From a virus: a stretch of DNA of 33,125 nucleotides. Position 1 is the first letter of the stretch. Each line of letters starts with the position of its first letter. Under the pieces are notes generated by a model that saw only the letters and a list, made by a program, of their open reading frames with translations, was not told the DNA's origin and did not search any database. The position numbers and the translations under genes were made by a program. Location: IMG/VR virus record IMGVR_UViG_3300030061_001398, positions 1 through 33,125 of that record; one strand, 5' to 3'. Shown here one piece after another: positions 20,569 through 29,875 of this stretch.

Positions 20569-20843
20569 TATTTAGATCTCCCTTCTGCAAAACCCTTAAA
20601 AGTTGTTTGCTTCTTTTTTTCTTTTGGTTTATCTTCTAACATATCCTGCTCTTCTTGTATTCTATTCAATATTTCAAAAGCATCGAATATTGCTAATTTT
20701 TTTGTTGCTGCAGCATTTTTAAGTCTGTCTGCAGATATATCATCGTCTGAATCTACAATAGGTTCTTTAGCAACCTTTATAAGCTCTTCAACTGCTACTC
20801 GACCAGCTTGGATTATATTCTTCTTCGTTTCCTTCGTGCTCAT
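20568..20843 (-). CDS. Probable small terminase subunit
   Basis: A 91-residue, charged, all-helical protein (NIIQAGRVAVEELIKVAKEP, then DSDDDISADRLKNAAATKKL, then AIFDAFEILNRIQEEQDMLE) with a basic tail. It has no recognisable helix-turn-helix motif. The gene lies directly upstream of the large terminase, with stop and start overlapping by 1 base, and its size is suitable for the small, DNA-recognising subunit. The start overlaps the tail of the GroES-like gene by 56 bases; both reading frames look protein-like there. I base the call on position and helical character, so it remains provisional. Confidence 0.65.
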   Translation of the reverse strand: MSTKETKKNIIQAGRVAVEELIKVAKEPIVDSDDDISADRLKNAAATKKLAIFDAFEILNRIQEEQDMLEDKPKEKKKQTTFKGFAEGRSK

Positions 20844-21393
20844 ATTTAATTACAATATCATTTGATTTCATACAATATAGTCGTTTATTATCGACTAAAA
20901 ATTCCCATTCACCGTTAGGTGTGTAACCAACTAAGTCTCCTGGGTTAATATTAAGCTTGTTTAAGGAGCTATTGCCATATTTCAATATACCAGCAAGCTT
21001 TTGTTCTTTATCTAGCGTTAAATCGCTTTTGTCTTTTATTGGCTGTATAAAACACCTATCACCAAACGAGTGATAACCATCTTTATTTTTATATAAATAA
21101 ATTTGATCTATAGCACAAAAATATAAATTATCTTTAAAATAAGATCTTGATTTTTTCTTTTGACCTTTCATATCATAAAATGTTCTAAAAACATTTTGAT
21201 GTATTATTAATAAGTCGCCTTTATTTATACTTGTTTTAAAAGCTTTTGGTGTTTCTATAACTTCGGCTAATCTATTTACAAACTTCCAGTTTTCAATTTT
21301 TGTATTTACTATTAGCTTTTTATTACCAACATTTACTGTATTACTGTATTTTTCACCTACAGGTTTTACAATAAAATCATATAAACTTTTCAT
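20788..21393 (-). CDS. Tandem GroES-like barrel protein (putative co-chaperonin)
   Basis: A 201-residue protein that reads as two chaperonin-10-like units. Unit 1 (residues about 3-102) begins LYDFIVKPVG, has a loop ending KKLIVNT that resembles the hydrophobic tripeptide of a GroES mobile loop, then RLAEVIETP, INKGDLLIIHQNVFR and CAIDQIYLYK. Unit 2 (about 110-185) has DRCFIQPI, KLAGILKYG, INPGDLVGYTPNGEWEFLVD, and KRLYCMKSNDIVIKYE. The order of strand, GxVxxxG, GDxVxx, and Dixx matches GroES. I remember similar proteins near terminase genes in marine phage contigs. It may act as a capsid-size-adapting co-chaperonin like T4 gp31, or be a structural barrel. It overlaps both neighbours (1 and 56 bases). 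Confidence 0.6.
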   Translation of the reverse strand: MKSLYDFIVKPVGEKYSNTVNVGNKKLIVNTKIENWKFVNRLAEVIETPKAFKTSINKGDLLIIHQNVFRTFYDMKGQKKKSRSYFKDNLYFCAIDQIYLYKNKDGYHSFGDRCFIQPIKDKSDLTLDKEQKLAGILKYGNSSLNKLNINPGDLVGYTPNGEWEFLVDNKRLYCMKSNDIVIKYEHEGNEEEYNPSWSSSS

Positions 21394-22488: not shown

Positions 22489-22947
22489 TTATTTTTTACT
22501 TATTGTTTTAAATTTTTCTGCGCCTCGTGAACCAAAATAAGCTACATATACAGTTATTAAAAGTGATTTAAGTAAATCTACCCAACCGCTATCAACATCG
22601 AACTGTATATTAGAGCTTTCTAGTACTATTAAAATTATTAAAGATATAGTTAAAAATATAAGAGTCATTGGGCGTGTATTTTTAGATAACCATGAATCTG
22701 ATTTCATATCACTATCCCAGCGCTTTGATATTTCTTGCATTTCTACCATATCTTGCTCTAGCAATTTTAATGCTTTTTCTTTGTCTTCTGGAGGCATTAC
22801 TACAGGATCTTCTTTGCTTATTAAGTTTTTAACTAAACCTAATACACCTTGATCTGGTAATACATCACCTACCGTACCTAATATATGTGGAGCTGTTTTA
22901 GATAAAAACTGTCCAACTTTAGTATCTTTAAATTTCTTTTTAGGCAT
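22489..22947 (-). CDS. Holin-like membrane protein
   Basis: A 152-residue protein. The basic N-terminus is followed by an amphipathic region (residues 10-45) and a charged helix (55-80). Then SWLSKNTRP precedes a hydrophobic segment at 93-109 and a second at about 122-138 (WVDLLKSLLITVYVAYFG), with the tail GSRGAEKFK. The pattern resembles the three-transmembrane holin family of gene transfer agents (GTA_holin_3TM), where a WLxxxxRP segment precedes the membrane spans. A holin would form lesions in the inner membrane to time lysis. It overlaps the next upstream gene by 1 base. A peptidase gene lies two genes upstream, but no classical endolysin is visible in this window, which leaves the lysis role unproven. 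Confidence 0.6.
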   Translation of the reverse strand: MPKKKFKDTKVGQFLSKTAPHILGTVGDVLPDQGVLGLVKNLISKEDPVVMPPEDKEKALKLLEQDMVEMQEISKRWDSDMKSDSWLSKNTRPMTLIFLTISLIILIVLESSNIQFDVDSGWVDLLKSLLITVYVAYFGSRGAEKFKTISKK

Positions 22948-23153
22948 TAGTCTATTCTTTTTTCTATAACATATTTAGCACCTGGAAAAGTATAATCATA
23001 ACCAGGATACATTACTTTAGTATAACCTCTATCATCTGTTCCTAGTACTTTAAAATTAACACCTTTCATTGTTATTTTATTTCCTTGAATTATGTTTTGA
23101 TGTTTATTTACATCAGGACTATTACTTAAATAGCCTTTTTTAGAAAACTCCAT
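22947..23153 (-). CDS. Conserved small phage protein (68 aa)
   Basis: A 68-residue protein: MEFSKKGYLSNSPDVNKHQN, ITMKGVNFKVLGTDDRGYTK, then MYPGYDYTFPGAKYVIE. I recall the pattern NSPDVN followed by ITM..V.F.V.G.D and PG..Y.FPG in other small phage proteins, all of unknown function. The Ser-Pro in NSPDVN echoes the Ser-Pro motifs in the basic proteins to the right. It overlaps both neighbours by 1 base (22947 and 23153), showing tight coupling. Confidence 0.8.
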   Translation of the reverse strand: MEFSKKGYLSNSPDVNKHQNIIQGNKITMKGVNFKVLGTDDRGYTKVMYPGYDYTFPGAKYVIEKRID

Positions 23154-23461
23154 TACGCGTTTTTATATGCTTCAGCTTCCCAAGGCAATTGTTTATTACC
23201 TTCCTCCATCTTAGCTCTTGAATACTTTTTACCTTTCCAATATACAAAATCATCGTCATAATCTAAATCACCACGTTTCATTTGGTCTATATGCACCATT
23301 TCGTGAGCAATTACTTCAGCACATTGAGATGGATCTAAATCTTTATTTAATATTATAGTTCCATTGTTATTTGCTTTACCCATAACGCCGTCTTCCATAG
23401 GTACATTATACACTGGAGTGTTGTTAATTTTATATGGAGGATTTGAAAGTTTAAAAGCCAT
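23153..23461 (-). CDS. Small HExxH zinc metallopeptidase
   Basis: A 102-residue protein with the zinc-binding motif HEMVH (His53, Glu54, His57) in VIAHEMVHIDQMKRGD and a downstream LPWEAEAY at residues 92-99 that can supply the third glutamate ligand. This is a minimal gluzincin-like peptidase domain without a signal peptide. Relatives of similar size occur in phage genomes, and roles proposed for such proteins include virion or peptide cleavage. It lies two genes upstream of a holin-like protein, so a lysis role (cell wall peptide cleavage) is possible but not shown. The start is 2 bases after the stop of a 51-residue gene. Confidence 0.75.
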   Translation of the reverse strand: MAFKLSNPPYKINNTPVYNVPMEDGVMGKANNNGTIILNKDLDPSQCAEVIAHEMVHIDQMKRGDLDYDDDFVYWKGKKYSRAKMEEGNKQLPWEAEAYKNA

Positions 23462-24064: not shown

Positions 24065-24967
24065 TTAAGATTTATTAAGTATATCATTAATACTATCGTT
24101 TTGCTTTTGAAGATTTTTATTGTAAGCGTCAACTCGTTTATTGTAGTTTACGTTTACATTTCTTATAGAGTCAAGTGATTTATTGTACGAGTTAACATTT
24201 CTTGCATCAATAGCGTTAGCTTTGTCAGCTTGTTCTTGAGTGTTAAATTGTAAGTCTTTAATTCTATCTCTAAAACTATTTATTTTATCACTTCTTTCTT
24301 GCATCACCTGCTTTTGATCTTGACCTTTCTCGTTAATCAAACTGCTTGGGTCTGGTCTTTCTTGATTTAAAGGTGACATTCTAGATGATTGCGCATGTTT
24401 TGACAACCAAGAAGCATGTTTAGCTACTGGGTTATCATGCATTAGGTTGTATTTTTCTTGTTTTGCAGATTCCATTTCTGCAGGACTGTGTCCCATTTTG
24501 TTTGGTGAATAATTCATATTTATATCGCTTTTTACTGTTCCTTCTCCGCTAGCATTTCTAGTGTCGTAGTTTACATTCATTCCTTGCTTTTCAGCCTGGT
24601 TTACTGTTCTTTTTAAACGATTTAACCTTCTATCAAATTTACCTAGATGAGGATCGTTTGTTCCAAAAGTTGCTCTTGATTCATCAACCTTAGATTGTCT
24701 TCTATCTAATCTTTTTTTAATTCTTTTTTGTTTGTTTGATTCCATTTCAACTGGGGAAATATTTACTATTCTTCGGTTGGCTTTTTCTTGTGGTGTTAAT
24801 TTCTTATATGCTTTAATACTCTCATCATCATGTTGCTTCGAAACTTTTTTAAATTTTTTTAACTTTCTTTTATGCTTTCTTGAGCCATCGCCTTCTAATC
24901 CGCCTAGTTCAGCTAATTGCTTAGCGGTTTTAAGCATTTTTTTGCCTTTTCTTTCTATTTTTGACAT
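24065..24967 (-). CDS. Lys-rich basic protein with repeated SP.EMES motif (300 aa)
   Basis: I start this gene at the ATG at 24965-24967, 1 base after the stop of the 140-residue gene, giving 300 residues from MSKIERKGKKMLKTAK. A longer frame runs upstream to 25081 but overlaps the neighbour by 113 bases and its added part looks like a shadow. The protein is Lys/Arg rich and helical. It contains SPVEMESNKQ and SPAEMESAKQ, an internal repeat of a ten-residue motif, plus MSPLNQERPDP. The C-terminus is a coiled coil with Asn-rich repeats (NVNSYNKSLD, NVNYNKRVDAY). No known family is recognised. Basic charge and repeated tags suggest a virion internal or DNA-associated protein. Confidence 0.75.
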   Translation of the reverse strand: MSKIERKGKKMLKTAKQLAELGGLEGDGSRKHKRKLKKFKKVSKQHDDESIKAYKKLTPQEKANRRIVNISPVEMESNKQKRIKKRLDRRQSKVDESRATFGTNDPHLGKFDRRLNRLKRTVNQAEKQGMNVNYDTRNASGEGTVKSDINMNYSPNKMGHSPAEMESAKQEKYNLMHDNPVAKHASWLSKHAQSSRMSPLNQERPDPSSLINEKGQDQKQVMQERSDKINSFRDRIKDLQFNTQEQADKANAIDARNVNSYNKSLDSIRNVNVNYNKRVDAYNKNLQKQNDSINDILNKS

Positions 24968-24968
24968 T

Positions 24969-25391
24969 TTATTTGTTTTTATTTTTATTTTTAATGTACT
25001 CGTTTCTAAGTTTTTCAGCATATTTACCTCCGTCTTTTCCTTTACCACTAAGTCTATTTCTAAATTCAGTTTTTGTTTCACCTGGTCTTATATGCTCGTG
25101 TTTAGCCATTGCACCTGTTCTTTTGTGTTTAGCTGGAGAACCATGATGCTTTTTATCATACTTCATATCGCCTGCTAACTTAGAAATATGTTTTTCATCA
25201 GCAGTCATTTTTTCGTCACTGTGACCGTGCTTAGAGTCGTATAGCACGTCACGCTTTAAATAATCTATATGAGCCGCATCATCTTTTACTGCGTCTTTAT
25301 AGTCGTGACTAGTTACAGCTGTATGTGCGTGATCCATACAACATCTTGCGTTACCAGTATATTTTCCGTAATGTCCTTTTGAGTATCCCAT
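24969..25391 (-). CDS. His/Lys-rich small phage protein (140 aa)
   Basis: A 140-residue protein very rich in His, Lys and Asp: GYSKGHYGKYTGNARCCMDH, AHTAVTSHDYKDA, then EKMTADEKHISKLAGDMKYD and HHGSPAKHKRT. The Cys-Cys-Met-Asp-His segment and many His residues suggest metal binding. I recall relatives with TADEKHISKLAxDxKYD in other phage genomes, all without a known role. HGSPAK places it in the Ser-Pro-motif group of this cluster. It lies 15 bases after the 227-residue gene. Confidence 0.8.
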   Translation of the reverse strand: MGYSKGHYGKYTGNARCCMDHAHTAVTSHDYKDAVKDDAAHIDYLKRDVLYDSKHGHSDEKMTADEKHISKLAGDMKYDKKHHGSPAKHKRTGAMAKHEHIRPGETKTEFRNRLSGKGKDGGKYAEKLRNEYIKNKNKNK

Positions 25392-25406
25392 TTTTTTATT
25401 ATTTAT

Positions 25407-26090
25407 TTAACTGCAAACACCGTTTTTATAAGTACCACCAGCTAAAATACAATCTGTCATTTCTTGCTGTTGTTTGCTATTAGTATTTGATAGATTTTCA
25501 TCTGCTCGTTCTTTAATTCTTAAGTATTTATCATCTTCGCCTTTTCTTGCCTTTCTTTTGTCAGCTCTTTTTGCTTGGTAATTACCTATGTTTTCAGGAG
25601 TCATAGCCGCCTTAGCGCCAGATACTATACTATCTTGTAGTTTTTGAAAGTCTGCAGCATTAGATACGTAATGATAATCATCAGCGTTTTGATAACTACC
25701 GTGTAAAGGTGTACCGTAGTTTACTCCGCTAGTTTTTTTTTTATCAACTGGATCTTTTTTAGCCATCTCTGTAGAATCAACTTTAGTTTTGTTTTTCATA
25801 GCTTTTTTCTCTTCTACGTGTCTTGCGTCTGCAGCTTTAGCTTTTGCTAAAAGATCTGTTACTTTTTTATTATCATAATCATAATCACCTTGCTCAGCAT
25901 CTTTAGAAAGCTCTCTAGCTTGATCTCTAAATTTTTCTCCGTGCTTATGATTTGGTGATCCCTTCATCTCTGGTGCAGCTTCTATAGCTTTCTTTAAATG
26001 ATCTGGTAATCTATTTTGTTTACCTACTAATTTTTTTTGTATGGGGTTTTTACCACAGAATTTTTTACTAAATGGTGAACTATAACTCAT
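25407..26090 (-). CDS. Basic protein with N-terminal SPFSKKF motif (227 aa)
   Basis: A 227-residue, strongly charged protein starting MSYSSPFSKKFCGKNPIQKK. The rest is Lys/Asp/Ala rich and helical, with KKTSGVNYGTPLHGSYQNAD in the middle and a Cys-containing end (DCILAGGTYKNGVCS). The N-terminal Ser-Pro-Phe followed by lysines matches two neighbouring proteins, arguing for a shared signal. No enzymatic motif or membrane span is seen. It may be packaged in the virion with DNA, though I have only charge, repeats and context for this. Confidence 0.75.
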   Translation of the reverse strand: MSYSSPFSKKFCGKNPIQKKLVGKQNRLPDHLKKAIEAAPEMKGSPNHKHGEKFRDQARELSKDAEQGDYDYDNKKVTDLLAKAKAADARHVEEKKAMKNKTKVDSTEMAKKDPVDKKKTSGVNYGTPLHGSYQNADDYHYVSNAADFQKLQDSIVSGAKAAMTPENIGNYQAKRADKRKARKGEDDKYLRIKERADENLSNTNSKQQQEMTDCILAGGTYKNGVCS

Positions 26091-26101
26091 AATTTTTATT
26101 T

Positions 26102-26353
26102 TTAATCTTTAATTGGACGTTCAGCGTCGTCTGTTTTTTTCATTTGAATTTTACCGTTTACACATTCAAATTCATTTTTTTCTCTATTGTATTCTGCTAA
26201 ATTTTCCTCTGCACTAATTGGAACTTTTACTTTTTTATACTTTCCATCAACTTTTTTTAAAGTTTCTTTATTTTTTCTTCCAGTATAACCAGATTTAAAT
26301 TTATCCCAAGCTGCTGAGCATTTATCTTGCTTAAATGGTGATTTTGATCTCAT
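26102..26353 (-). CDS. Basic protein with N-terminal SPFKQ motif (83 aa)
   Basis: I choose the ATG at 26351-26353, giving MRSKSPFKQDKCSAAWDKFK. A longer frame begins at 26416 but overlaps the previous gene by 59 bases, while the chosen start follows its stop by 4 bases behind an A/T-rich stretch. The protein is Lys-rich (YTGRKNKETLKKVDGKYKKV) with two Cys. Its N-terminal SPFKQ pairs with SPLFKKF and SPFSKKF in neighbours. Function is unknown. Confidence 0.7.
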   Translation of the reverse strand: MRSKSPFKQDKCSAAWDKFKSGYTGRKNKETLKKVDGKYKKVKVPISAEENLAEYNREKNEFECVNGKIQMKKTDDAERPIKD

Positions 26354-26357
26354 ATTA

Positions 26358-26555
26358 TTATTTTCTTTTACAACCAAAGTTTTTAGCATAGTTAGCCATC
26401 TTAACAACTTCTTCACTATACTTTTTAGTATTTTTCATCACAGCACTAGCAGCGGAACAAGCATCTTTAAAACCGTTCTTTTTTGCCCAAGCTGTAAATT
26501 TACCTTTGTTTTTCTCTTTTATTTCAGGAAACTTTTTAAATAATGGGCTAAACAT
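26358..26555 (-). CDS. Small KGKFTAWAKK-type phage protein (65 aa)
   Basis: A 65-residue basic protein: MFSPLFKKFPEIKEKNK, then GKFTAWAKKNGFKDACSAAS and a C-terminal ANYAKNFGCKRK. I recall the pattern KGKFTxxAKKxGF followed by KxxxxAxFAxN as a very common tiny protein in phages of several hosts, often beside structural genes, with no accepted function. Here it is fused to an N-terminal SPLFKKF tag. Its start overlaps the stop of the next upstream gene by 1 base. Confidence 0.8.
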   Translation of the reverse strand: MFSPLFKKFPEIKEKNKGKFTAWAKKNGFKDACSAASAVMKNTKKYSEEVVKMANYAKNFGCKRK

Positions 26556-26776
26556 TAGTAAGCTCCTCCTCCTTTACTGCATTTAGTTATAGGCATACCT
26601 TTGTAGTATGTTTTAGCTTTTAAAACCTGCATACCTGTTATACCTGAGCTAGAACCTACGCCGTGTGGTCTTCCAGTTTGATCTAATGGTCCGTCCCATA
26701 TAGCGTTTTCACCTACAACACCATGGGCATTTTTAGACGCCATTGTTTTATCGTAATTTGGATCTGTTTTGTGCAT
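26555..26776 (-). CDS. Small Gly/Lys protein of unknown function (73 aa)
   Basis: A 73-residue protein: MHKTDPNYDKTMASKNAHGV, GENAIWDGPLDQTGRPHGVG, then SSSGITGMQVLKAKTYYKGM and a Gly-rich end. No domain is recognised and no membrane or catalytic feature is seen. It lies 4 bases after the 282-residue basic protein gene and overlaps the KGKFT-type gene by 1 base. It is real by operon spacing and composition; function is unknown. Confidence 0.7.
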   Translation of the reverse strand: MHKTDPNYDKTMASKNAHGVVGENAIWDGPLDQTGRPHGVGSSSGITGMQVLKAKTYYKGMPITKCSKGGGAY

Positions 26777-26780
26777 AATT

Positions 26781-27629
26781 TTATTTTTTATTTTTTATAC
26801 TATAAAAGTTTTTACCTTGAGACACACTGTCTCTTTTTATAGCCATTGTTTTCATTTGTTCAATGTAATTATTATTCATTTCTCCTGATCTTTTCATTTT
26901 TCTTCTTTGCTTTGGAGTTATAACAATTCTATCTTTTGTATCTCGTGGATCAGCTGAACCACCATCAAGACTTAAACCAGCTACATAGTTTCCACTATTT
27001 TTATCTTTTTCAAATTCATAAGTTTGCTCTCCAATTATATTTTGATTAAAAGGAGTAGGAAAAGTATTAGGCGCGCTAACCGCATTTTGTCTCATCTGCA
27101 TATCTCCAAACATGTTATTAGCAGCAGCCATGGTTGATGGATTAAAAACAGGCTTAGACATACCCATTACGTTAGACGGCTGAGGAGGCATATTAGACAT
27201 TTGAGTTTGCGTAGGCATACCAGTTATTGGATCTACCATACTAAAAGCACTTGCTGTTTTTTTAACACCTTCTACCGCTTTTTTAATATTTCCACTTTTT
27301 ACAGCATTAACAGTATTAATAGTACCTTCTACAGCTCTACCAACTCTACTGTCTCTTACTTTTTCTACAGTTTCTTTTACTTTTTTAACAGTTCTTTTTA
27401 CGCCTCTTTTGCCCTCTGCTCTTTGCTTTTTTCTTTCAGCTCTTGCAGCTTGTCTTTTTTCTTTACCGCTTTTACCTTGTTTAGCTTTTTTTACGTCAGC
27501 TCTGTTTTTTTGTCTGCGTTCTTTACCTGTCATAGTAGCGGGTGTCTTTTTATTGTCAGGGTGTCCTTTACCACCATCTGCTTTGTCAGCGTGTACTGCT
27601 TTGCGTTGTGCGTCGCTTGCGTATCCCAT
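26781..27629 (-). CDS. Highly basic Lys/Arg-rich protein, possible DNA-binding virion protein (282 aa)
   Basis: A 282-residue protein. Residues 1-110 are extremely basic, with runs of Lys, Arg and Ala (KKTPATMTGKERRQKNRADV, AARAERKKQRAEGKRGVKRT). Residues 110-150 form a helix, and 150-210 are Met/Pro/Asn/Gln rich and disordered. Then DRIVITPKQRRKMKRSGEMN and a basic tail follow. The N-terminal part resembles histone-tail or nucleoid-protein composition, so it could condense DNA in the head, or compact host DNA. The reverse strand here also shows long frames, but they are Ser/Phe-rich shadows. The gene lies 2 bases after the winged-helix gene, so it belongs to the chaperonin operon. Confidence 0.75.
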   Translation of the reverse strand: MGYASDAQRKAVHADKADGGKGHPDNKKTPATMTGKERRQKNRADVKKAKQGKSGKEKRQAARAERKKQRAEGKRGVKRTVKKVKETVEKVRDSRVGRAVEGTINTVNAVKSGNIKKAVEGVKKTASAFSMVDPITGMPTQTQMSNMPPQPSNVMGMSKPVFNPSTMAAANNMFGDMQMRQNAVSAPNTFPTPFNQNIIGEQTYEFEKDKNSGNYVAGLSLDGGSADPRDTKDRIVITPKQRRKMKRSGEMNNNYIEQMKTMAIKRDSVSQGKNFYSIKNKK

Positions 27630-27631
27630 AA

Positions 27632-28078
27632 TTATCTGTATTTGTCTTTGTTTACGTTTTCAATAGCTTTTGATAAAACTTTATCTGTATAACTTTTACC
27701 AGCCATTAATTTATTTCTTCTAACACTTGTTGGTAAATCTTCTTCACCAAGCATTATTCTATATATTCTTTTTATAAGTTGTTTACCTTTAAATGATAAC
27801 TGGTATAAATTATGTTTTTGAGTTGATCTATTTCTTTTTCTCCATATAACAACCCAATCATTGTCTATTAACTTAGCCCAGCGCCTTGTATCCCAACTAT
27901 AAGAATATGTACCTTGTTTAAAATCTTTTATACTAAATAATCCTACACAATCTAAATAAATTAATAACTCTAAATCAGCATCATTTAAATTATTATTTTT
28001 ACAAGCCCATTTTCTTATTATTCTGTAATGCTTTAATAGGTTTAATTCTTTAATGTCACTAGCACTTAAACCTCTCAT
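27632..28078 (-). CDS. Winged-helix DNA-binding protein (MarR-like)
   Basis: A 148-residue protein. Residues 13-105 look like a winged helix: helix LLKHYRIIRKWACKNNN, the LNDADLELLIYLDCVGLFSI helix pair, a basic recognition region (YSYSWDTRRWAKLIDND) and a wing WVVIWRKRNRSTQKHNLYQL followed by SFKGKQLIKRIYRIML. The LTxxG/SxKG segment after the wing is usual in MarR-type folds. The C-terminus is basic and helical. The start overlaps the groES stop by 4 bases (ATGA type). It may regulate late genes or act as a structural DNA-binding protein; no operator is evident. Confidence 0.7.
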   Translation of the reverse strand: MRGLSASDIKELNLLKHYRIIRKWACKNNNLNDADLELLIYLDCVGLFSIKDFKQGTYSYSWDTRRWAKLIDNDWVVIWRKRNRSTQKHNLYQLSFKGKQLIKRIYRIMLGEEDLPTSVRRNKLMAGKSYTDKVLSKAIENVNKDKYR

Positions 28079-28335
28079 GTCACTACAACTACATCTTGTA
28101 CTTTTATAACTCTATAAGATTTTTTATCTATTTCAATTTTGTGACCAGCGTGTCTATCATAAAATATAATATCGTTTTCATTAACACCTTCAACTTCTGT
28201 ACCTACAGATATTACAGTTGCTTGAACGTATCTTATGTCTTCACGTTGGTTTTCTGCAAGAAGTAAACCACCTTTTGTTTTAGTAGTGCCTTCTTTTGTT
28301 TTACTTATTATTAAGTTTCTACCTATTGCCTTCAT
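28075..28335 (-). CDS. groES: GroES-type co-chaperonin
   Basis: An 86-residue protein that reads as chaperonin-10: MKAIGRNLIISKT, the mobile loop TKTKGGLLLA (hydrophobic LLL in place of bacterial IVL), ATVISVGTEVEG, NENDIIFYDRHAGHKIEIDK and YRVIKVQDVVVV. The usual length is about 95 residues, so this is slightly short, missing some of the roof. It overlaps the end of groEL by 17 bases, in the reverse order to bacterial operons, where groES comes first. It would cap the phage GroEL and host GroEL during folding of virion proteins. It is also coupled to the winged-helix gene downstream by a 4-base overlap. Confidence 0.9.
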   Translation of the reverse strand: MKAIGRNLIISKTKEGTTKTKGGLLLAENQREDIRYVQATVISVGTEVEGVNENDIIFYDRHAGHKIEIDKKSYRVIKVQDVVVVT

Positions 28336-29875
28336 CTATACGTAAATTATTGATTACACAATCAGTAGATAATATTGTTGTTGCTACAGAAGCTGCATTT
28401 TGAAGAGCGCTTTTAGTAACTAATAATGGATCAATTATACCACTATCAATCATATTTACCATATTTCCTGTAACTACATCAATACCATGACCATCTTTAC
28501 TGGCTATTTTATAACCTTCATAACCAGCGTTGTCTAATATTGTTTTATAAGGTGCTAATATGGCTTTACCTAAAACTCTTTCGCCTGCATTTATTTCTTT
28601 CATTTTTAACGCAGCGTTTAGTAAAGCAACACCACCACCTGAAACTATGCCTTCTTTAACTGCAGCTTTAGTAGCACAGATAGCGTCTTCGACTCTATCC
28701 ATTTTTTCTTTTAATTCAATTTCAGAGTTAGCGCCTACTTTGACTATAGCTATTTTAGCAGCTAACATTGCTAGTCTTTTTTCTAGTCTTACAACTAAAT
28801 TAGGATTTTTTTCTTTTAGTACTTTTTGTTTTATATCTTCAATTATAGCTTTTATTTCTTCGGATGCTTCAGCTACTTGAATTATAGTACTATCGTGTGT
28901 TGTAACACTTTTTAAACATGTACCTAAATGATCGATTTGTATCATATCCATGTCGTCACCTAAGTCTTCATTTATTATTGTAGCGCCTGTTAACATAGAT
29001 AAATCTTGCAGCATTTGCTGTTTATTTATTCCATATGTTGGAGCGTCGATAACATTTACTTTTATGTTACCTTTCATTTTATTCATTGCTAGAGCTGATA
29101 AAACACCTTGTTCTAAATCGCCTATAATAAGCAAAGGTTTGTTGTTTTTTATTACGTACTCTAGCACTGACTGAATCTGTCTAATAGTATCTACAGGAGA
29201 TTCAATTAATAACACTAGTGGATTTTCTAGTTCAGCAGCTTTGCTTTGTTTATTAGTTATAAAATGAGAATTTTTTAATCCTTTATCATATTGAACACCA
29301 TCTATAACTTCAAAACAAGTATTACCATCGGCAGCTGTTTCCATCATTACAACACCTGTGTTATCTACAGATTTAAAAGCATCGGCAATAATTTTACCAA
29401 GTTCTTTATCATTGTTTGTAGATATTGCTGCTACTTGTTCTAGCATATCATCTTTTACAGGTACTGAAACTGATTCTAAATATTTTATTACTTTTCCAAC
29501 ACCGCTACTAATACCTTCTTTTAATTCTCTTGAATTAGTTTTGTCTTGCTCTTTGTAAGCGTAGTATAATATAGCATGTGCTAATACAGTTGCAGTAGTT
29601 GTGCCGTCTCCAGCTTCTCTAACTGTTTTACGAGCTGCTTCTTTTAAAAGTGTAGCGCCCATGTTTTCAACAGGGTTTCTCAAAATAACTGAGTCGGCAA
29701 CTGTTACGCCGTCTTTAGTAATAATTGGTTTACCTGTATTGTCTTCTAACATCACACATTTACCGCTAGCTCCAAGTGTGGAGCTAACAGCATTTGTGAG
29801 TTTTGTTATACCTTTAAATACTTCTTCCCTAGCTTTGTCACCAAAGTTAAGGTTTTTGACTATTAAGTCTGACAT
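28319..29875 (-). CDS. groEL: GroEL-type chaperonin
   Basis: A 518-residue group I chaperonin. ATPase motifs are present: TKDGVTVA with Asp55, AGDGTTTATVLA with Asp90, and RVEDAICATKAAVKEG with Asp397, matching Escherichia coli Asp52, Asp87 and Asp398. The end IIDPLLVTKSALQNAASVAT is typical. The apical domain is present (KPLLIIGDLEQG, MLQDLSMLTGATII). Unlike most bacterial GroEL it lacks the Gly-Gly-Met tail and ends NNLRIDEGNR. The apical segment DRGYLSPYFI of E. coli is DKGLKNSHFI here, so two of three aromatic substrate-binding residues are changed. It likely folds capsid or tail proteins. The leader holds a 20-base element shared with the 82-residue gene. Confidence 0.97.
   Translation of the reverse strand: MSDLIVKNLNFGDKAREEVFKGITKLTNAVSSTLGASGKCVMLEDNTGKPIITKDGVTVADSVILRNPVENMGATLLKEAARKTVREAGDGTTTATVLAHAILYYAYKEQDKTNSRELKEGISSGVGKVIKYLESVSVPVKDDMLEQVAAISTNNDKELGKIIADAFKSVDNTGVVMMETAADGNTCFEVIDGVQYDKGLKNSHFITNKQSKAAELENPLVLLIESPVDTIRQIQSVLEYVIKNNKPLLIIGDLEQGVLSALAMNKMKGNIKVNVIDAPTYGINKQQMLQDLSMLTGATIINEDLGDDMDMIQIDHLGTCLKSVTTHDSTIIQVAEASEEIKAIIEDIKQKVLKEKNPNLVVRLEKRLAMLAAKIAIVKVGANSEIELKEKMDRVEDAICATKAAVKEGIVSGGGVALLNAALKMKEINAGERVLGKAILAPYKTILDNAGYEGYKIASKDGHGIDVVTGNMVNMIDSGIIDPLLVTKSALQNAASVATTILSTDCVINNLRIDEGNR

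Follow-up and report, generated by a model that had tools for sequence, protein, structure and literature searches.

A Ser-Pro motif common to dissimilar small late proteins of a phage group and its possible role as a cargo label

Results

The virus record IMGVR_UViG_3300030061_001398 of IMG/VR, from a marine phage, was analysed over a 33-kb stretch (33,125 nucleotides, 32.7% G+C), which is called the window as a whole. The subject of the analysis is a block of seven consecutive minus-strand genes at 24065-27629, most of whose products carry a short Ser-Pro (SP) motif, referred to here as a tag. The terminase and the portal put the window near Flavobacterium phage elemo (Elemovirus), the Cellulophaga phages phi38:1 and phi18:3, and the uncultured ctfjg026. 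From the lowest coordinate upwards, the block starts with a basic protein of 300 amino acids (aa), family c7 (24065..24967), which has the tags NISPVEMESNKQ, NYSPNKMG, GHSPAEMESAKQ and RMSPLNQ; several SP are present in many of its relatives. Its frame was taken from the ATG at 24967, and the longest frame, which starts at a GTG at 25081 and has 338 aa, overlaps the next gene. Then come a 140-aa His/Lys-rich protein, family c6 (24969..25391), with the tag HHGSPAKHK; a 227-aa basic protein, family c5 (25407..26090), with SSPFSKKF at the N-terminus and KGSPNHKH; and an 83-aa basic protein counted from its ATG, family c4 (26102..26353), with the N-terminal tag KSPFKQDK. The 65-aa protein of family c3 (26358..26555) combines the N-terminal tag MFSPLFKKF with a three-helix domain that is treated below. 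The last two are a 73-aa conserved protein, family c2 (26555..26776), and a 282-aa Lys-rich protein, family c1 (26781..27629). Neither has SP in the window, and some relatives of c1 begin with MAYKDSPNKQL. An earlier note on this DNA had described seven consecutive genes for mostly Lys-rich proteins, and the reading frames and the composition bear this out, with 20-26% Lys+Arg in six of the seven proteins and 12% in the 73-aa protein. PHROGs and Pfam searches with the cluster proteins assigned no function.

Five of the seven cluster proteins carry nine SP motifs in total. Those named in the earlier note are all present in the sequence, and MKGSPNHKHG of the 227-aa protein and NYSPNKMGHSPAEM, a double motif of the 300-aa protein, were found beyond them. 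Nine SP in 1200 aa compare with 2.91 ± 1.62 by shuffling, and nine were reached in 4 of 2000 shuffles. The remaining called genes of the window hold 19 SP against 22.9 expected by shuffling.

The motif was followed through the proteins of the genome and of its relatives, which are loci fetched from IMG/VR together with phage records. SP occurred at 4.1-5.8 times the number expected from the proteins' own composition in the five tagged families (observed/expected 43/9.8; c4, 21/4.9; c5, 87/21.3; c6, 58/10.0; c7, 115/28.4). The c2 family had 5 SP against 24.5 expected. Other families mostly stood at 0-2 times the expected number, with TerL (49/252) and the portal (50/130) below expectation. The exceptions among them were a 272-aa protein (2.1 times) and a 68-aa protein at 22947-23153 (16/2.4, with a fixed NSPDVN). 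The 68-aa protein, whose fixed stretch reads NSPDVN-x-HQNII, has a match (E 2.8e-4) in part of a PHROG virion structural profile of 895 residues, and its SP looks like a part of the fold, not a tag.

The same excess was seen when the families were pooled. The 194 dereplicated basic proteins of the interval contain 281 SP against 89 ± 9 after shuffling (500 shuffles, maximum 120), while the reversed dipeptide PS, used as a control, was found 56 times. The first 12 residues hold 71 of the 281 SP, where 23 are expected, and the remainder are internal. The consensus of the motif is [K/G/S/H]-S-P-[L/A/F/M]-[K/N/E/Q]-[K/M], and a hydrophobic residue directly follows SP in 226 of 279 contexts, against a background of 30%. 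Conservation of the motif in relatives, on which the proposal of the earlier note depended, was observed: the Ser of SP is more conserved than other Ser in all five families, and the Pro more than other Pro in four of them, the exception being c3. Since SP is encoded by 17 codon pairs, selection acts on the protein, and a DNA repeat was rejected as the source of the motif. DNA for GSPAKM was found in 41 stretches in a scan of the collection, and DNA for the scrambled GPSAKM in 18. Two of the 41 lie in loci already collected. Among the other 39, which were examined, 28 fell by our own reading in small basic open reading frames (ORFs), against none of the 18 scrambled controls. Twenty-six of these 28 ORFs have at least two SP, and 12 are near-copies of one protein. 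In one relative (G043), several proteins have the motif in the dialect RKTSPLN.

Sequence comparison shows the tag to be modular. The 25 relatives aligned with the window c3 are all 78% or more identical to it, and the N-termini of the family are of two kinds, either SP-bearing (M..SPFFKE, MFSPLFKK) or untagged (MATRGRTKK, MAEKE), with the same conserved domain behind either. A domain occurs with and without the tag in c3 (33 of 46 distinct sequences tagged), in DUF6321 (3 of 5) and in an 'ATLRDWF' domain (2 of 3). The 53 of 78 distinct modules that have a c3 gene were compared, 45 with a tagged and 8 with an untagged c3. SP was present in 155 of 197 other basic proteins of the tagged-c3 modules (323 SP vs 84 expected) and in 4 of 38 of the untagged-c3 modules (4 SP vs 4.4 expected), and the SP density of the other basic proteins differed accordingly (Mann-Whitney p = 9e-6). 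On a TerL tree of 68 of 93 rows, from which near-copies and two distant rows were removed and in which nine intermediate rows have no SP state, the SP state needs 9 changes, and well-supported branches force 5 of them. Because non-homologous proteins gain or lose one motif together, one recognising partner is suggested.

Upstream of TerL, untagged sisters (L049, L051, L053, L060, L070, L071, L076 and L080) have, in place of tagged proteins, a run of extremely basic, protamine-like ones, many with 35-40% Lys+Arg, among which the starts MSKFGDK and MAILKKL recur. The N-terminus MATRGRTKK is common to unrelated c3 and DUF6321 proteins of untagged genomes (L080 vs L049, L053, L071 and L076), as if another tag were in use there. 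A 198-aa protein of L054 has DHAAKKY/DHAAKM repeats that resemble SPAKKY/SPAKM minus Ser-Pro.

A structural model of c3 gave a predicted local distance difference test score (pLDDT) of about 51 for residues 1-10 and of 84-90 for residues 21-60, and the tag is predicted to be flexible. The domain behind it matched the domain family of crassvirus cargo protein 1 in hhalign with a probability of 98.1 and an E value of 8.6e-14, and the two have the signature IKxxNxGxFTAxAKxxG...ANFAxN in common. With c3 as the tblastn query, the domain was found in the crassviruses cr127_1 and cr128_1, and with a crassvirus query in 26 phage records. Pairwise E values of c3 were 8e-10 with cr127 and 1e-8 with cr128. 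In crAss001 gp45 the c3 protein matches residues 377-419 with 37% identity (pairwise E 0.001), and cr128 gp049 and DAC15 gp080 align with gp45 across hundreds of residues. Judged from these alignments, the c3 domain of the window is homologous to the crassvirus cargo-protein-1 domain. According to excerpts of PMC10172136, crAss001 gp45 is cargo protein 1, a virion protein detected by mass spectrometry (MS), and its residues 425-552 are bound to the portal inside the capsid. The c3-like domain of gp45 directly precedes this portal-bound part. Its placement was consistent in the ten crassvirus records inspected, seven having it in the protein at the gp45 position and three in a 72-83-aa protein beside portal and head genes; the cr127_1 protein was set at the gp45 position by order alone, its neighbours being unannotated. 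Unlike the window c3, the crassvirus domain mostly lies inside a protein of 576-923 aa, and in Suoliviridae it is a stand-alone protein of 72-83 aa beside the portal or a peptidase gene. In a scan of 84,980 species genomes, 3 contigs had relatives of c3, and the best of these, in a metagenome-assembled genome (MAG) titled Flavobacteriaceae, is a weak hint of the host. Two c3 relatives (L308 and L309; 70% identity over part of the protein) lie in MAG contigs titled Aliivibrio and Epsilonproteobacteria, and these are probably co-binned phage contigs.

Another link to the virion comes from the phage phi40:1. Its gp69 (113 aa) and gp80 (101 aa) are Lys-rich, lie upstream of the terminase-portal block, a position similar to that of the window cluster, and are annotated as structural protein on the basis of experimental tandem mass spectrometry (MS/MS); their sequences were taken from the phi38:1 counterparts. 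Since gp45 and the phi40:1 proteins are untagged, the two links bear on the clients, supporting small proteins of this kind as virion proteins, and are no direct evidence on the tag. A tblastn search of 50,697 phage records with the 227-aa and 73-aa proteins and a tagged relative of the 300-aa protein gave no match, and tblastn with the 65-, 73- and 227-aa proteins and the tagged 300-aa relative found no cultured phage with a tagged protein.

Discussion

Most safely stated, otherwise dissimilar late proteins of this phage group have in common a short linear motif that is modular and under selection. The earlier note had taken one tag on dissimilar proteins as a common signal, and this is now well supported by the enrichment, the conservation, the tagged and untagged forms of one ortholog and the concordance within genomes. 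The explanation that we tentatively favour, a little short of calling it probable, is that the SP motif is a cargo label which recruits small late proteins into the head via one trans-acting factor. The tag may be a label for virion loading because relatives keep or lose it together on most proteins and because c3 belongs to the crassvirus cargo domain family. The motif, attached to or repeated in small, mostly Lys-rich late proteins, would be read by one recognition factor acting in trans. During head assembly the tagged proteins would bind this factor, for which the capsid, the portal, the scaffold and a cargo protein are candidates, and they would be packed with the DNA as internal proteins and perhaps ejected into a host that may be flavobacterial. 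The further suggestion of the earlier note, loading into the head, is plausible in view of two independent indirect links, the crassvirus cargo domain and the small basic proteins of phi40:1 detected by MS/MS. If the label is real, the orphan proteins that enter the virion, and perhaps the host, could be predicted from sequence alone in these marine phages, most of which are uncultured, and a short tag for loading proteins into a phage head would be at hand. Through the homology of c3, small orphan proteins from marine phages are connected with cargo proteins of crassviruses from the gut.

Several observations weigh against a cargo label. A tagged protein has so far been seen in no virion, crAss001 gp45 has no SP at all, and the phi40:1 proteins detected by MS are without the SP tag. 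A classic targeting peptide would be N-terminal, whereas the SP motifs are mostly internal, and the SP Pro of c3 is less conserved than the Pro residues of the domain itself (0.49 vs 0.86). Small basic proteins without SP occur in tagged genomes (SP is carried by 155 of 197), and one locus (L045) has an untagged DUF6321 protein beside a tagged c3. Only eight modules have an untagged c3, and these are related and do not represent eight independent events. The sharing of motif dialects within genomes is weak, the observed value being reached in 44 of 1000 permutations. The search for a partner by co-variation pointed to none of the proteins compared. SP in the scaffold-like protein and in the 272-aa structural protein is independent of the SP state of the genome, so neither is marked as the partner, and the N-terminal arm of the major capsid protein (MCP) differs just gradually between tagged and untagged genomes. 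A search of 49 records, tagged and untagged, recovered the MCP family of the window in 39, and those in which it was missed are no longer than 21 kb. In one relative (L237, record G017) the MCP gene was read with one in-frame TGA.

The main rival is a processing signal, since a gene for an HExxH peptidase is linked to the tag. The motif would then be the recognition site of this small metallopeptidase, and the tagged late proteins would be trimmed by it while the head is assembled or afterwards. The gene (23153..23461, minus strand) follows the tagged cluster downstream, after two small genes, and encodes a 102-aa protein similar to minigluzincins and IrrE, a candidate for a tag-processing enzyme or for co-cargo. 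The zinc-site residues H53, E54 and H57 and a further acidic residue, E95, are invariant in 40 peptidase sequences. The model of the protein (pLDDT 85) has its top fold matches in abylysin, IrrE and selecase, which hints at the small HExxH protease fold of the minigluzincins and the IrrE/M78 peptidases, but these matches are weak (Foldseek E about 0.06-0.1, best 0.057), and the Pfam scores are below the curated cut-offs. The peptidase was found in the queried tagged records. Ten queried records with an untagged c3 (L049, L051, L053, L057, L060, L070, L076, L079, L080 and L082) gave no hit for it, nor did five isolate or named records. A close peptidase, defined by at least 55% identity with a cut set after the data had been seen, tracks the SP state in 3-4 of 5 independent pairs on the TerL tree and runs opposite to it in none; five pairs, however, are too few for significance (p 0.125). 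Because the loci of the tag and the peptidase are physically linked, exchange of a cassette would yield the same pattern. Moreover, several SP-poor genomes (L054, L129, L132, L135, L149 and L165) keep a divergent or ordinary peptidase. Several peptidases begin with MAFKxxSPF and that of L105 has a tagged extension, so the enzyme may be a client too, and co-cargo fits equally well. We regard processing as unlikely.

Ranked after processing, and likewise improbable, is a ligand function unrelated to packaging, in which the partner of the motif would be either the phage GroEL, encoded beside the cluster, or a protein of the host bound after infection. Short hydrophobic motifs in flexible tails would be typical ligands, the c3 tag is predicted to be flexible, and GroEL and GroES genes adjoin the cluster. 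Against this, GroEL is kept in SP-poor genomes (12 of 14 complete intervals), the cluster genes are surrounded by late genes for structural proteins and lysis, and a virion cargo protein contains a domain of the c3 family. Very unlikely is DNA condensation of the SPKK type, in which SP turns and basic residues bind AT-rich DNA. The proteins are indeed Lys-rich, the G+C content of the window is 32.7%, and the proteins of untagged relatives are still more basic, at 35-40% Lys+Arg. According to excerpts of PMC9903204, the SPKK/SPRK motif of sperm histones has Ser-Pro followed by Lys in basic proteins, as might be compared with the present tag, but here the position after SP is hydrophobic. Lys or Arg is at that position in 10 of 279 contexts and at both following positions in 1 of 279, and the SPKK DNA-binding motif was rejected on this count. 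An origin by chance, or as a side effect of composition, codon use or repeated DNA, has in its favour the small count of nine in the window alone and can practically be dismissed after the shuffle tests, the PS control, the 17 codon pairs and the conservation.

Among known systems, a cargo label of this kind would resemble the capsid targeting sequence (CTS) of phage T4 in how it loads proteins, as an analogue and not a homologue. Ten N-terminal residues suffice for the incorporation of the T4 internal proteins IPI-IPIII, according to excerpts of PMC9026906. Like the CTS, the tag is a short sequence common to dissimilar small proteins, in T4 those inside the head. It differs from the CTS in sequence, and the SP motifs are mostly internal and repeated. 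The PHROG matches obtained for ten structural proteins of the window include no protease family, and no gp21-like prohead protease was identified there. In encapsulins, cargo-loading peptides are the short motifs by which different proteins enter an HK97-type shell, and we know of no motif common to them and the SP tag. A narrow literature search on a Ser-Pro motif in the context of phage capsids found no report, which does not show that the motif is unpublished.

A bolder extension of the cargo label, which we consider rather doubtful as a whole, concerns the marine flavophages of this group. The transferable, multi-copy SP motif would be a general code for cargo loading, and the linked minigluzincin-like peptidase, often bearing the motif itself, would travel along with the cargo or free it. 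Any small late protein that gained the motif would be carried into the virion and the host, and untagged sisters would use protamine-like cargo instead.

The neighbourhood of the cluster contains further small genes. Starting from GroEL and GroES, the order is a phrog_17028 protein, the seven-gene cluster, a 126-aa protein, a 51-aa protein and the 102-aa HExxH protein, followed by the 68-aa protein, a holin-like protein, more small genes, a second GroES-like protein and then the terminase. The phage's own GroEL is at 28319-29875 and its GroES at 28075-28335, and the second, longer GroES-like protein (phrog_13932) at 20788-21393 adjoins the terminase. A second group of tagged genes is present in one relative (G031), directly after an ORF of 2337 aa.

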